64,000 nt of DNA from Aporrectodea caliginosa (lineage: Eukaryota > Annelida > Clitellata > Crassiclitellata > Lumbricidae). Positions 14,855-63,521 of this stretch are shown here, one piece after another. A model generated the notes under the pieces. That model did not search any database and was not told the DNA's origin. It saw only the letters and a list, made by a program, of their open reading frames with translations. A program made the translations under genes and the position numbers. The DNA lies in contig JACEVL010000005.1 in the NCBI GenBank assembly GCA_020284085.1, positions 308,501-372,500 on the forward strand. Direction: 5' to 3'. Within the stretch, counting starts at the first letter, position 1. Every line of letters starts with the position of its first letter.

Positions 14855-17800
14855 ATGGAGTACCTGGGCCAGACGCAGACGGCTACCTACATGACGGGGC
14901 CCAGAATGGGTGGCAGCGGAACGCCTACCTTTCTACCCTCGATCACAATTATGGAGCCTGCCTGTAAACCGTACGATACTTACCCGGCGCCGACCCCCCT
15001 ACGACGGTCGCTGACCACCCTGCCCTGGAGACCTAGCGCCTACTACGGCAGCGCAAGGGTGCAGCCGTGTCTTCCAAACGTCGGGAGCATGCCCGAACCG
15101 CAGTCGGAGCTGAACAAACTGCGCGACCTGGATAGCATCAAGGTCAGGAGGCGGTGAAAATCTGCGTTTTTTTAAAGGAAATATTTACACTAGCGAGCAA
15201 AATTGTGGAAACACCTACCAATTTGCATATTTTGCTGTAGAAAGTCATAGTTATGAAGGCAGAAAGATGCTCAATTTACTATGTTTTTATTGAGTTGATT
15301 TATTTTACAAATATTTAGTTAATTTATTTGACAAATATTTCAGTGTAGGTTCGTAGGTTCAGCGCCATGTTGCATGCGCACGTATAAGGACGCTGAGTGA
15401 TAAACTGCTCGTACTCTGACAGTGCCAGTCCAAAGCCTGGATGATCGAAGGAGGAGGGCGACGATAATCATCTTTGTTATCACTACAGTGTCGTAAAACA
15501 GCAAAACTAGACATGTGTTGCTTAGAGAAAAGATTTATAAAGTTAGCTTCTTCTGAAAATCTTTGGCCTAGGCCTATATAGGCCTATATGGCCCTAGAGG
15601 AAAGGCCCGTGTCGCAATCAGGGCCTTTCAGAAGTTGGTCAGCGCGTAGCCCCTTGTCTAGCCTATGTGAGACTTAGGTCAAATGACCATAACTTAGGCC
15701 TAATTGCAGATTACACTGGCCCAGTTAGGTACATTGCTTAGAGCGTAGACTGTGTCCCATGCGGCTCTGTGTTAGAGAGCGTGAGGATCGCGGTTCGTTT
15801 CCCGAAGGTGACTGTTTATTTCATAGATTTATTTAATCTCGGGCTAGCACAGTCCGTACACAGGGACCTTAAATGACGTGGCGCCCATTCAAACGGACAG
15901 CGGACCAGCGCTGATAAAGGATATCTCACCAGTGTTGTGCACGAGACCAAAATTCCAAGACCAAGACCGAGACCAAGACCGCGTGGTCCAAGACCAAGAC
16001 CGAGACCAAGACCGCGTGGTCCAAGACCAAGACCGAGACCAAGACCGCGTGGTCCAAGACCAAGACCGAGACCAAGACCGCGTGGTCCAAGACCAAGACC
16101 GAGACCAAGACCGCGTGATCCGAGACCAAGACCGAGACCAAGACCGCATTGTCCAGGACTAAGACCTAAGCCTAAAGAGTCAAGACCATAAACGCAATTC
16201 TCAATTGTAGCGTTACATATTTCCATAATTCAAATCAGATGTCTATGATATAGTTATAGTTTTTGTCCCCAAGACTGCGAGGTCTCATGAAGAGCACACT
16301 ACCGCTAAACACGCTCTCGACAGGCGCAGCTGTTGCGGAATAAAAAAATTCCAGTAGAGAAAAATTCCACACCAAATACCTGATTTCCAATGCTGCCCGA
16401 CTACTGATCGATTTGCCTTGAGAAACTGCATCAGTGTAGCCTAAGCCTAACTATAGTCACAAAAGCACCTGAAATCAGGGTTAACTGTGTCTCAACGTTT
16501 TCTTGTCGCTTCTGATAACAAGCGAACAAAGAGGTACTCTCTCGATCGCTTTGTCCTTGACGGATCGTTGCATGAATTCGAAGCTATCTGAGAAGTCTCT
16601 GAATAACCGGAAATATCGACAATATTTAACAAATACTCCACTCTCGTTGCCACCAAAAGCCAAACCAAAAGGCGCAAGGCCAAGACCAAAGGCGAATGAC
16701 CGAGACCAGACACCCAATACCAAGACCACACCTTTAAGACCAAGACCAAGACCAAGACCGCACCTTTCAAGACCAAGACCGAGACCGCTACATTCAAGAC
16801 CGAGACCAAGACCAAGACCGCATTTTTTCGGTCTCGAGACGGTTTCGAGACCAAGACCGCGGTCTCGAGACCACACCACTGGATCTCACCCGATCAATTC
16901 GAGGCCATACGGTCGCAATATTATATAGGCTCTAGGCCTACATTTACAGAATATATGACAAGGGTTTTCTGATCAACTTAAAGTCCTAATTGCAATGCTA
17001 TGGTATAATGTTATGTTATGTCATGATATGTAATGTTGTCATACCACCTAACTTGAGAACCTATTGCACCATTGATGAATAGGTCCCGCCGGTGTTTGCC
17101 GCCGCTCGGAACACGCTCTACACGCGCTACTCGAACAACGACTGGCTCCAGTCGAACCAGAGCCTCTACCAGAGCTCGAACCGGGTGCGAGGCGGGTCAG
17201 AGGTTCTGCGGTCAGACTCCTTCCGGCTGTGCTGGGAAACGGACGACAAGACGAAGAGAACGCAGCAGGATGTGGGAAAGAAGCTGGGACAGCGCATCGG
17301 AGACGTCCAGTACTGGAAGACGGAAGTCCAGAACGAGATGGACAACATGGTCGCCGAGATAGACGCCCTGCACAAGGCCAAGTGTTGCCTGGAAAGGGCG
17401 CTGTCGGAGGTGGAGAACACGATGCACATCGATCAGGAGTGTCTCTACTATCGAGAAAAGAGACAAGGTATAGACCTCATACACGACGAGGTCGAAAATG
17501 AACTCGTGAAGGCAAGCATTTAATTCTGTATACGATTCATATTCATTTCCCGTCGAAAGATGAGTTAAGAAATCGTAACTGGCAGTACCGTAGCGACGGG
17601 TGTTCCAGGCTTCCAGCGGTGCTATGAAACAGGGCGCAACTCAAAGGGGGGGGCGCAAATGTTGGTCGTCATTGCTTAGGCCTAAGTATTTGAGCCGAAA
17701 CTAAGCTGGCCTCCAGCTGCCACCGATAGCATGATGCTATAGTTTGCAGCAGGCTTGGGTCAGTTGCTTCACCAAAAACGCGATTAAATTACAATTACTT

Positions 17801-63100: not shown

Positions 63101-63521
63101 ATTTTTCATTCAAACTCAGCACTTCAATCTACCTGATACTATTGCCATTAAAATAGAAAGTATGATTGAACTCGTCTGACAAAAATTAATAAATATTGCT
63201 TAGTTTTGAGATCATTCAGAGCTTTTGTATTATAATTGCACTGGTAATCACAAATTTATATAGCTCCACTTCAAATGGAACTCATAAGAGTCAAATTGAA
63301 AACACAAACCACAATTTTATCTAAGAGTTTCAAAAACTTACAAAACAGAGGCAAAGAAAAGATTGAGGAGTTCAAGTCAGAGTTTGGTGAGAAACATACC
63401 TCCAGATCATCAGAATATTCCAGAAGATCAAGGTCTGAATCACTGAGGAGGTCGGCCCAGTAATGGCTACCAACGATGGCTACCTCACAAGCTGCGACTT
63501 TATACATCGATGCCAGATCAT
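60167..63521 (-). CDS. MINPP1-like phosphatase, copy C (exons 2-4; exon 1 outside window)
   Basis: Exons present: 63521-63400, 62949-62846, 60626-60167, with the same phases and almost the same lengths as copy B (122, 104 and 460 bases). No stop or frameshift was found. Blocks: EVAIVGSHYWADLLSDSDLD, YWKTGYGYPINYQISCP, GHAETLVPLAALLGLF with the HAE motif, and KEMCSMTGSAA. The catalytic RHG motif lies in exon 1, which should be just right of 64000. The C-terminus has a small-residue stretch (SAAVPSASA) followed by a strongly hydrophobic end (FLSIFILMLLNTCLI), the layout of a GPI-anchor signal or membrane tail. Intron 3 holds a LINE end, a GATA microsatellite and a SINE broken by a hAT-type element. 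Confidence 0.85.
60762..60822 (-). mobile_element. tRNA-derived SINE fragment
   Basis: On the minus strand it carries 'gggttcgagcctcaactgag' and 'gggaccttgaacaactcc', matching the head and body of the SINE at 61536-62200. Confidence 0.5.
60830..61067 (+). mobile_element. LINE 3' end in MINPP1-C intron 3
   Basis: Plus-strand frames give GSVTRQRRAFSIVDPSLWNS and then the tail 'ggggcgctatataaagttc', as in the TEKT3 introns. The tail microsatellite is GATA here instead of ATGA. Confidence 0.75.
61067..61261 (+). repeat. (GATA)n microsatellite
   Basis: About 195 bases of nearly perfect GATA units directly after the LINE tail. A second short run with ATTG units lies at 61493-61531. Confidence 0.97.
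61536..62200 (+). mobile_element. tRNA-derived SINE interrupted by a hAT-type element
   Basis: The head 61536-61587 has an A-box-like 'tagccaactggttgagt' and a B box 'gggttcaagcctcctctg'; the body resumes at 62133 with 'agggcttctctttagggacc' and 'ttgagcaagtcc'. The insertion point lies inside the SINE, so the hAT-type element is younger. Confidence 0.65.
61588..62124. mobile_element. 537-bp hAT-type MITE with perfect 8-bp target duplication
   Basis: Inverted ends CAGTGTGATTCTC and GAGAATCACACTG, flanked by CCTCTGAG on both sides (61580-61587, 62125-62132). Both arms are arrays of 'tagttatagttatag' and 'cgttaacgaaa' units. No transposase frame. Confidence 0.88.
62223..62285 (-). mobile_element. 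63-bp TTAA-flanked inverted-repeat element, copy 3
   Basis: Reverse-orientation copy of the elements at 9821 and 10073, again exactly 63 bases between TTAA tetramers, over 50 kb away. The core 'agtgtactaaaagcgactgg' is conserved. Confidence 0.75.

Follow-up and report, generated by a model that had tools for sequence, protein, structure and literature searches.

A tandem array of MINPP-like phosphatase genes and partial tektin copies in Aporrectodea caliginosa

The multiple inositol polyphosphate phosphatases (MINPPs) are defined by two motifs, RHGxRxP and HAE, and the eukaryotic enzymes are described in a review as carrying a KDEL-like endoplasmic reticulum (ER) signal (PMC12580751). Locations outside the ER have also been reported. 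Human MINPP1 isoform 2, without the SDEL ending, was reported outside the ER, in exosomes (PMC8890658), and for Drosophila Mipp1 an extracellular role in tracheal cells is reported (Cheng and Andrew 2015, via PMC10820837). Here we describe an array of three MINPP-like phosphatase genes, each facing the end of a tektin gene, in Aporrectodea caliginosa (assembly GCA_020284085.1, 1.098 Gb in 4,544 contigs). The array lies in a window of 64,000 nucleotides, the whole stretch of DNA analysed, which corresponds to bases 308,501-372,500 of the 3.07-Mb contig C4 (JACEVL010000005.1); all results come from this one assembly of one individual. We know of no triplication of Drosophila Mipp1, and none of the papers listed on MINPP duplication describes such an array, judged by titles and the openings of abstracts.

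Duplicates can exchange sequence with the gene they derive from by interlocus gene conversion, as reportedly described by Takuno et al. in 2008. Such conversion leaves mosaic relationships and a tract homogenised between functional and broken copies (PMC3790853). In the present array, by contrast, the conversion partner would be a lone terminal exon carried by the duplication of its neighbour. Presence-absence variation reported in Mytilus galloprovincialis includes deletions that take coding sequence from one of two haplotypes (PMC7653742), whereas here one exon is concerned, at one locus in one individual of another phylum.

Self-BLAST of the window (E-values down to 0) places three modules in the same order and orientation: A at 23.4-26.5 and 36.7-38.9 kb, B at 48.6-54.9 kb, and C at 58.4-63.7 kb. 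An earlier interpretation made without database searches, referred to below as the sequence-only reading, had located all three in this way. The head-to-tail order, the junctions and the similar divergence of coding and noncoding sequence identify the array as a tandem segmental duplication. To the right of A, 39,127-43,001 aligns in pieces of 71-85% identity with 66,702-69,687, the right flank of C. The pieces are colinear except for inverted ones at 40.1-40.4 and 41.3-41.5 kb, and the most informative of them pairs 42,425-43,001 with 69,057-69,687. Immediately beyond, 43,060-44,915 matches 20,753-21,084 (tektin intron 3 and exon 4) in pieces. Together the two matches point to a tandem duplication of 20.75-43.0 kb and fix its junction to within ~60 bp, the bases from 43,003 to 43,060 being unassigned. 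The second duplication most likely arose inside the second copy, because B and C share an extra ~1 kb upstream of the phosphatase (54,991-56,110 vs 65,109-66,283, in pieces) that is unmatched in A, and because the left edge of module C is the position equivalent to tektin intron 6. In the 20 kb to the left and 60 kb to the right of the window, no further tektin or phosphatase exon was found except exon 1 of phosphatase C; one intronic piece of phosphatase B recurs at 119.0 kb.

The array thus probably grew from an ancestral convergent pair, a TEKT3-type tektin and a MINPP-type phosphatase, through two nested tandem duplications (Table 1). The first would have copied ~22 kb, beginning in tektin intron 3 and ending ~4 kb past the phosphatase start. 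The second would have copied 8-10 kb within the copy so formed, a portion that begins in tektin intron 6 and extends past the phosphatase. Since both left breakpoints fall within the tektin gene, the phosphatase alone would have been copied whole, and copy A is presumed to be the original phosphatase.

Table 1. Features of the array, in window positions unless stated otherwise
Feature	Position	Strand	Remarks
Complete TEKT3-type tektin gene	14855..23863	+	7 coding exons; tblastn, splice edges, Pfam
Tektin coding exons	14855-15143, 17083-17511, 19457-19528, 20821-20967, 21918-22145, 22898-23053, 23648-23863	+	
Tektin exon 7 with the adjoining ~130 bp of 3' flank	23648..23990	+	tract with 94-98% identity across the three modules
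Phosphatase A, MINPP-like	25158..38743	-	4 exons: 38039-38743, 36926-37047, 26290-26396, 25158-25539
Tektin exon 4, remnant in copy B	43060..44114	+	43,060-43,155 and 44,005-44,114, split by ~850 bp insertion
Copy B tektin exon 7	48678..48893	+	open frame, intact acceptor, AATAAA; Pfam Tektin E 4e-21
Phosphatase B	50141..54814	-	exons 54112-54814, 53455-53576, 52268-52371, 50141-50564; 450 aa open
Stretch missing from C4032	53786..56309		~2.5 kb; includes the active-site exon (exon 1) of phosphatase B
Copy C tektin exon 7	58622..58860	+	in-frame TAA insertion, 2-bp insertion at stop codon, AATAAA lost
Phosphatase C, exons 2-4	60167..63521	-	63400-63521, 62846-62949, 60167-60626
Phosphatase C, exon 1	64223-64928 in window-extended coordinates (C4:372723-373428)	-	beyond the window
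Proposed unit of first duplication	20753..43002		~22 kb; tektin intron 3 to phosphatase A plus ~4 kb upstream of phosphatase A
Proposed unit of second duplication, as in copy B	47936..56110		matches 58347-66283 in pieces

The three phosphatase genes are convergent to the tektin gene and have four coding exons each, with GT-AG at the internal exon edges in all three. Copy B is complete, and copy C, once the exon beyond the window is included, has an open frame of 463 aa, which bears out the earlier description of B as complete and C as intact in its visible part. His_Phos_2 (PF00328) matches B and C at E 1.1e-30 each. Among the PDB matches of phosphatase C at E<=1e-3, 11 of 17 are named multiple inositol polyphosphate phosphatases and the other 6 acid phosphatases. 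The active-site heptapeptide is present as RHGIRYPG and the proton-donor tripeptide as GHAET in A, B and C. In a protein tree of 18 rows the three copies group with P0003 at support 99/99; a group of A, B and C alone has 90/85, which leaves this fork open. Judged by motifs, domain and tree placement, A, B and C belong to the MINPPs, the HAE-type histidine acid phosphatases. They have both motifs, the domain match and a hydrophobic signal-like N-terminus in common with known enzymes such as human MINPP1 and the MINPP solved as PDB entry 4fdt. More distant MINPP-like genes occur elsewhere in the genome, on C820 (37%) and C671 (30%). In the MINPP-like gene at C671:100400-102400 (L044), HSG replaces the HAE proton-donor motif.

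An array of this kind could be produced by an assembly that laid two haplotypes in tandem, and the existence of separate small allelic contigs does indicate that the assembly is incompletely phased or purged. These contigs are informative in themselves. Contig C4114 (11.5 kb; window 37,946-49,508) extends from exon 1 of phosphatase A to the exon 7 copy of module B and includes the A-B junction. Contig C4032 (10.7 kb; window 49,759-58,790) extends from exon 4 of phosphatase B to the tektin exon 7 of module C and includes the B-C junction, and C3615 covers window 26.2-36.6 kb. Nine of the 14 blocks in which the small contigs align to the window are 91-98% identical. We infer that the three contigs are one alternative haplotype in pieces. 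Since C4114 and C4032 hold both junctions, the tandem order exists in two independent versions. Furthermore, synonymous divergence (Ks) between the phosphatase copies, ~0.19, is about four times the allelic Ks of phosphatase A exon 1 (0.044). With the allelic contigs separate and the junctions inside them, duplicated haplotypes, which the sequence-only reading had named as the case against itself, are hardly credible.

Phosphatase Ks, with bootstrap ranges, is 0.184 (0.128-0.241) for A-B, 0.188 (0.139-0.253) for A-C and 0.203 (0.144-0.262) for B-C, over 428, 433 and 447 codons, respectively. Using the other allele of A exon 1, it becomes 0.169 for A-B and 0.177 for A-C. The corresponding values for tektin exon 7, over 69-70 codons, are 0.126 (0.032-0.262), 0.089 (0.020-0.203) and 0.152 (0.047-0.303). 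The ranges of the two genes overlap, as had been anticipated for duplication in blocks. Jukes-Cantor distances in noncoding sequence are 0.137 (A-B), 0.162 (A-C) and 0.153 (B-C), and are low because only alignable parts were compared. The two duplication events are close in time, and the phosphatase and tektin ages are compatible; conversion would depress the tektin values. Within the phosphatases, exon 4 has Ks of ~0.12 for A-B and A-C against 0.25 for B-C, but with few sites conversion of this exon is not claimed.

The ratio of replacement to synonymous divergence (Ka/Ks) of the phosphatases is 0.50 for A-B, 0.57 for A-C and 0.44 for B-C, or 0.56 and 0.62 for A-B and A-C with the other A allele. 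The range of 0.44-0.62 points to purifying but relaxed selection on all three copies, which are presumably transcribed. Lesions are found in two of them. The assembled A allele has a 2-bp insertion near the end of exon 1 that shifts the frame, a lesion overlooked in the sequence-only reading, and the C4114 allele is without it. The alternative B allele lacks exon 1 and also has a frameshifting deletion in exon 4. The other allele of phosphatase C was not found, and C is whole in the one version available. Different copies thus appear to be broken in different alleles, A in the assembled contig and B in the alternative one.

These lesions bear on why the extra phosphatases persist. The earlier suggestion that they were retained for dosage agrees with the catalytic motifs present in all three copies and with Ka/Ks below 1 for all three pairs. 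A strict need for dosage is argued against by the broken alleles of A and B and fits poorly with ratios as relaxed as those observed; moreover, the differing C-termini make the copies non-equivalent. We therefore consider retention for dosage quite improbable. The alternative offered in the same reading, divergence of the phosphatases, finds support at the C-termini.

None of the three copies ends in a KDEL-like tetrapeptide: A ends in TGSA, B in FLRML and C in NTCLI. In 20 database relatives, 11 proteins end in -EL and one in -DL, two (P0001 and P0002) instead show a hydrophobic stretch close to the C-terminus, and six have neither, one of these (P0140) being a 270-aa piece. P0001 and P0002 are the closest full-length relatives, and P0002 has charged residues after the hydrophobic stretch, as in a membrane-spanning helix. 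The highest hydropathy of a 13-residue stretch in the last 35 residues is 2.47 for C, compared with 2.89 for P0001, 3.11 for P0002, 1.08 for B and 0.32 for A. In the C-terminal alignment A has lost ~87 bp by deletion, and a 2-bp indel makes B stop earlier than C. The tail is thus hydrophobic in C, degraded in B and deleted in A. These ends set the copies apart from enzymes of the family such as human MINPP1 and PDB 4fdt.

Since the C-termini differ, different locations are predicted for the copies, with C attached to the membrane or cell surface and A freely secreted. The hydrophobic tail of C may act either as a glycosylphosphatidylinositol (GPI) signal or as a transmembrane segment. A and C would then resemble Drosophila Mipp1 in acting outside the cell. 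Human MINPP1 isoform 2 differs in being a splice isoform of one gene; here the variants are separate tandem genes.

The full-length tektin gene was mapped by tblastn, the queries being P0006 and P0017 (a Dimorphilus tektin), and its exon edges are accurate to +/-1-2 bases. Exon 2 matches Pfam Tektin at E 4.9e-39. Among the best 120 of 277 protein hits, the closest ones with a named organism are from Dimorphilus gyrociliatus, Platynereis dumerilii and Owenia fusiformis (68% identity each), and Lingula, a brachiopod, is just behind these annelids at 67%. The Platynereis protein is named tektin 3/5A, and many named tektin-3 come next. The genome holds further tektin-like genes, L051 (C818), L052 (C44) and L053 (C332). 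Since the C818 gene is nearer to P0006 (74% over residues 19-250, vs 71% for the two window exons there), the window tektin may be a duplicate rather than the orthologue.

The extra modules retain one or two tektin exons, as had been noted before. Module B has a broken exon 4 and exon 7, and in module C only exon 7 was found. The exon-4 match in C4114 (2914-2768) is without the ~850 bp insertion, and the other allele of copy C exon 7 has a different lesion, a 4-bp frameshift. The leftovers cannot encode a tektin. A 34/69-bp tandem array of 2.6 kb (45264-47840) lies at the expected place of copy B tektin exons 5-6.

Exon 7 and the sequence that follows it are much alike in the three modules. 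Identity in the exon is 96.2% for A-B, 97.2% for A-C and 95.8% for B-C, and in the next 130 bp 97.7%, 93.8% and 94.6%. The flanks of this tract are less alike, 75-85% in intron 6 and 81-92% in the farther 3' flank (Fisher p, tract vs flanks, 1.1e-8 for A-B, 2.6e-6 for A-C, 2.8e-10 for B-C). Between the two B alleles there is no significant contrast (12/342 differences in the exon tract vs 6/323 outside, p 0.23). A dead tektin copy dispersed to contig C550 (L021 5019-6336 = C550:242019-243336), made up of exons 6-7 and their introns and also missed in the sequence-only reading, served as a fourth sequence. With it, the closest pair in intron 6 is A-C (7 sites, none for A-B or B-C), and in the 3' flank it is A-B (5 sites, with one each for A-C and B-C). 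This switch across exon 7 has a Fisher p of 0.0047 on the A-C and A-B counts, from few sites. The indels agree: a ~20 bp block upstream is common to B, the B allele and C550, and a 5-bp one downstream is common to C and C550. The closest-pair switch, the indel pattern and the identity of the tract together argue for repeated gene conversion between the copies, which would have reset exon 7 and its 3' tract and kept the leftover exons near the functional gene. Copy C is a case in point, its frame broken differently in two alleles, yet the exon 97% identical to A. A dispersed-repeat origin of the 3' tract was rejected, as it occurs at 5 places in the genome at E<=1e-3, the query itself counted. 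The window has 0 Rfam matches at the gathering threshold that would mark the conserved tract as a known RNA element.

The same conservation could instead be due to function. The extra last exons, B now and C formerly, would then provide an alternative terminal exon, or else a short coding unit, preserved by purifying selection. The conservation step at the exon edge for A-B, an exon 7 Ka/Ks of 0.07-0.29 among A, B, the B allele and C, and the condition of copy B exon 7, with its open frame, acceptor and AATAAA, are in line with such a function. However, copy C has kept its identity to A despite a different lesion in each allele and the loss of AATAAA, copy B exon 7 sits ~25 kb downstream of tektin exon 6, past an antisense gene, and the closest-pair pattern changes across the exon. 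Function is thus unlikely, and conversion is preferred. The view of tektin as a mere passenger holds for the duplications, as breakpoints inside the gene carried part of it along. It does not account for an exon 7 and 3' end kept near-identical to the functional gene, with the C frame broken in each allele.

The account as a whole, nested tandem duplications with converted tektin leftovers and with phosphatases under relaxed selection and diverging at their C-termini, appears probable to us. Several points weigh against it: i) the conversion test depends on 13 informative sites and on the C550 copy, itself of uncertain origin; ii) the 3' flank of that copy is 96.9% identical to the gene though its coding part is 88.9%, so selection on the 3' end at the RNA or DNA level is possible; iii) derived changes in the leftover exons of B, the B allele and C are 8 synonymous and 4 replacement (12 variable codons, binomial p 0.0013); iv) the A/C right-flank match is partly repetitive, with 39,127-39,395 also at ~71.5 and ~74.1 kb, and some of its pieces are inverted; v) with the A+B+C fork open, the order of duplication is read from the flanks only; vi) 5 of the 14 aligned blocks of the small contigs reach just 81-91% identity with the window, and the phase of these contigs is presumed; and vii) the 2-bp frameshift of A could be an assembly error. 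The synonymous lean under iii) fits conversion from a constrained donor with allelic variation, and possibly also some coding constraint left in the open-frame copy B.

A further-reaching scheme can be put forward tentatively, as a doubtful extension of this account. An animal MINPP lineage may have left the ER by swapping the retrieval signal for a hydrophobic tail. The copies would then have split by location alone around one catalytic core, C at the membrane, A secreted through deletion of the tail, and B intermediate. The stranded tektin exons would act as a conversion reservoir that feeds changes and lesions back into the functional tektin.

The array offers a clean and datable example of a duplication that took in the whole of one gene but just a part of the gene convergent to it. 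The stranded exons would here have been homogenised, not lost, and the targeting tail of a putatively secreted enzyme would be free to change. With two different copies each broken in one allele within a single assembly, copy loss may be visible while still segregating.

A number of other elements occur at the locus. Phosphatase A intron 2 contains a 5.9-kb GC-rich minisatellite with a 27-bp unit (27095-32989), which is also in C3615. The same intron has a reverse-transcriptase-like fragment on the minus strand (34385-34888), below the Pfam cut-off (RVT_1 E 2.3e-06); sequence matching 33413-35501 is also in C4114, at a different place. A 15-bp minisatellite in phosphatase B intron 3 (50677-51389) is longer in C4032 (~7172 to 9623), and its unit also forms small arrays in opposite orientations between modules A and B (41667-41829 and 42164-42287). 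An inverted pair of 33-bp-unit arrays, 86% identical, is found at 15928-16150 and 55705-55915. Upstream of the tektin gene, exons of a NUBP/ParA-like P-loop NTPase lie at 7977-10527 on the minus strand (PF10609, E 3.3e-19 and 9e-08).

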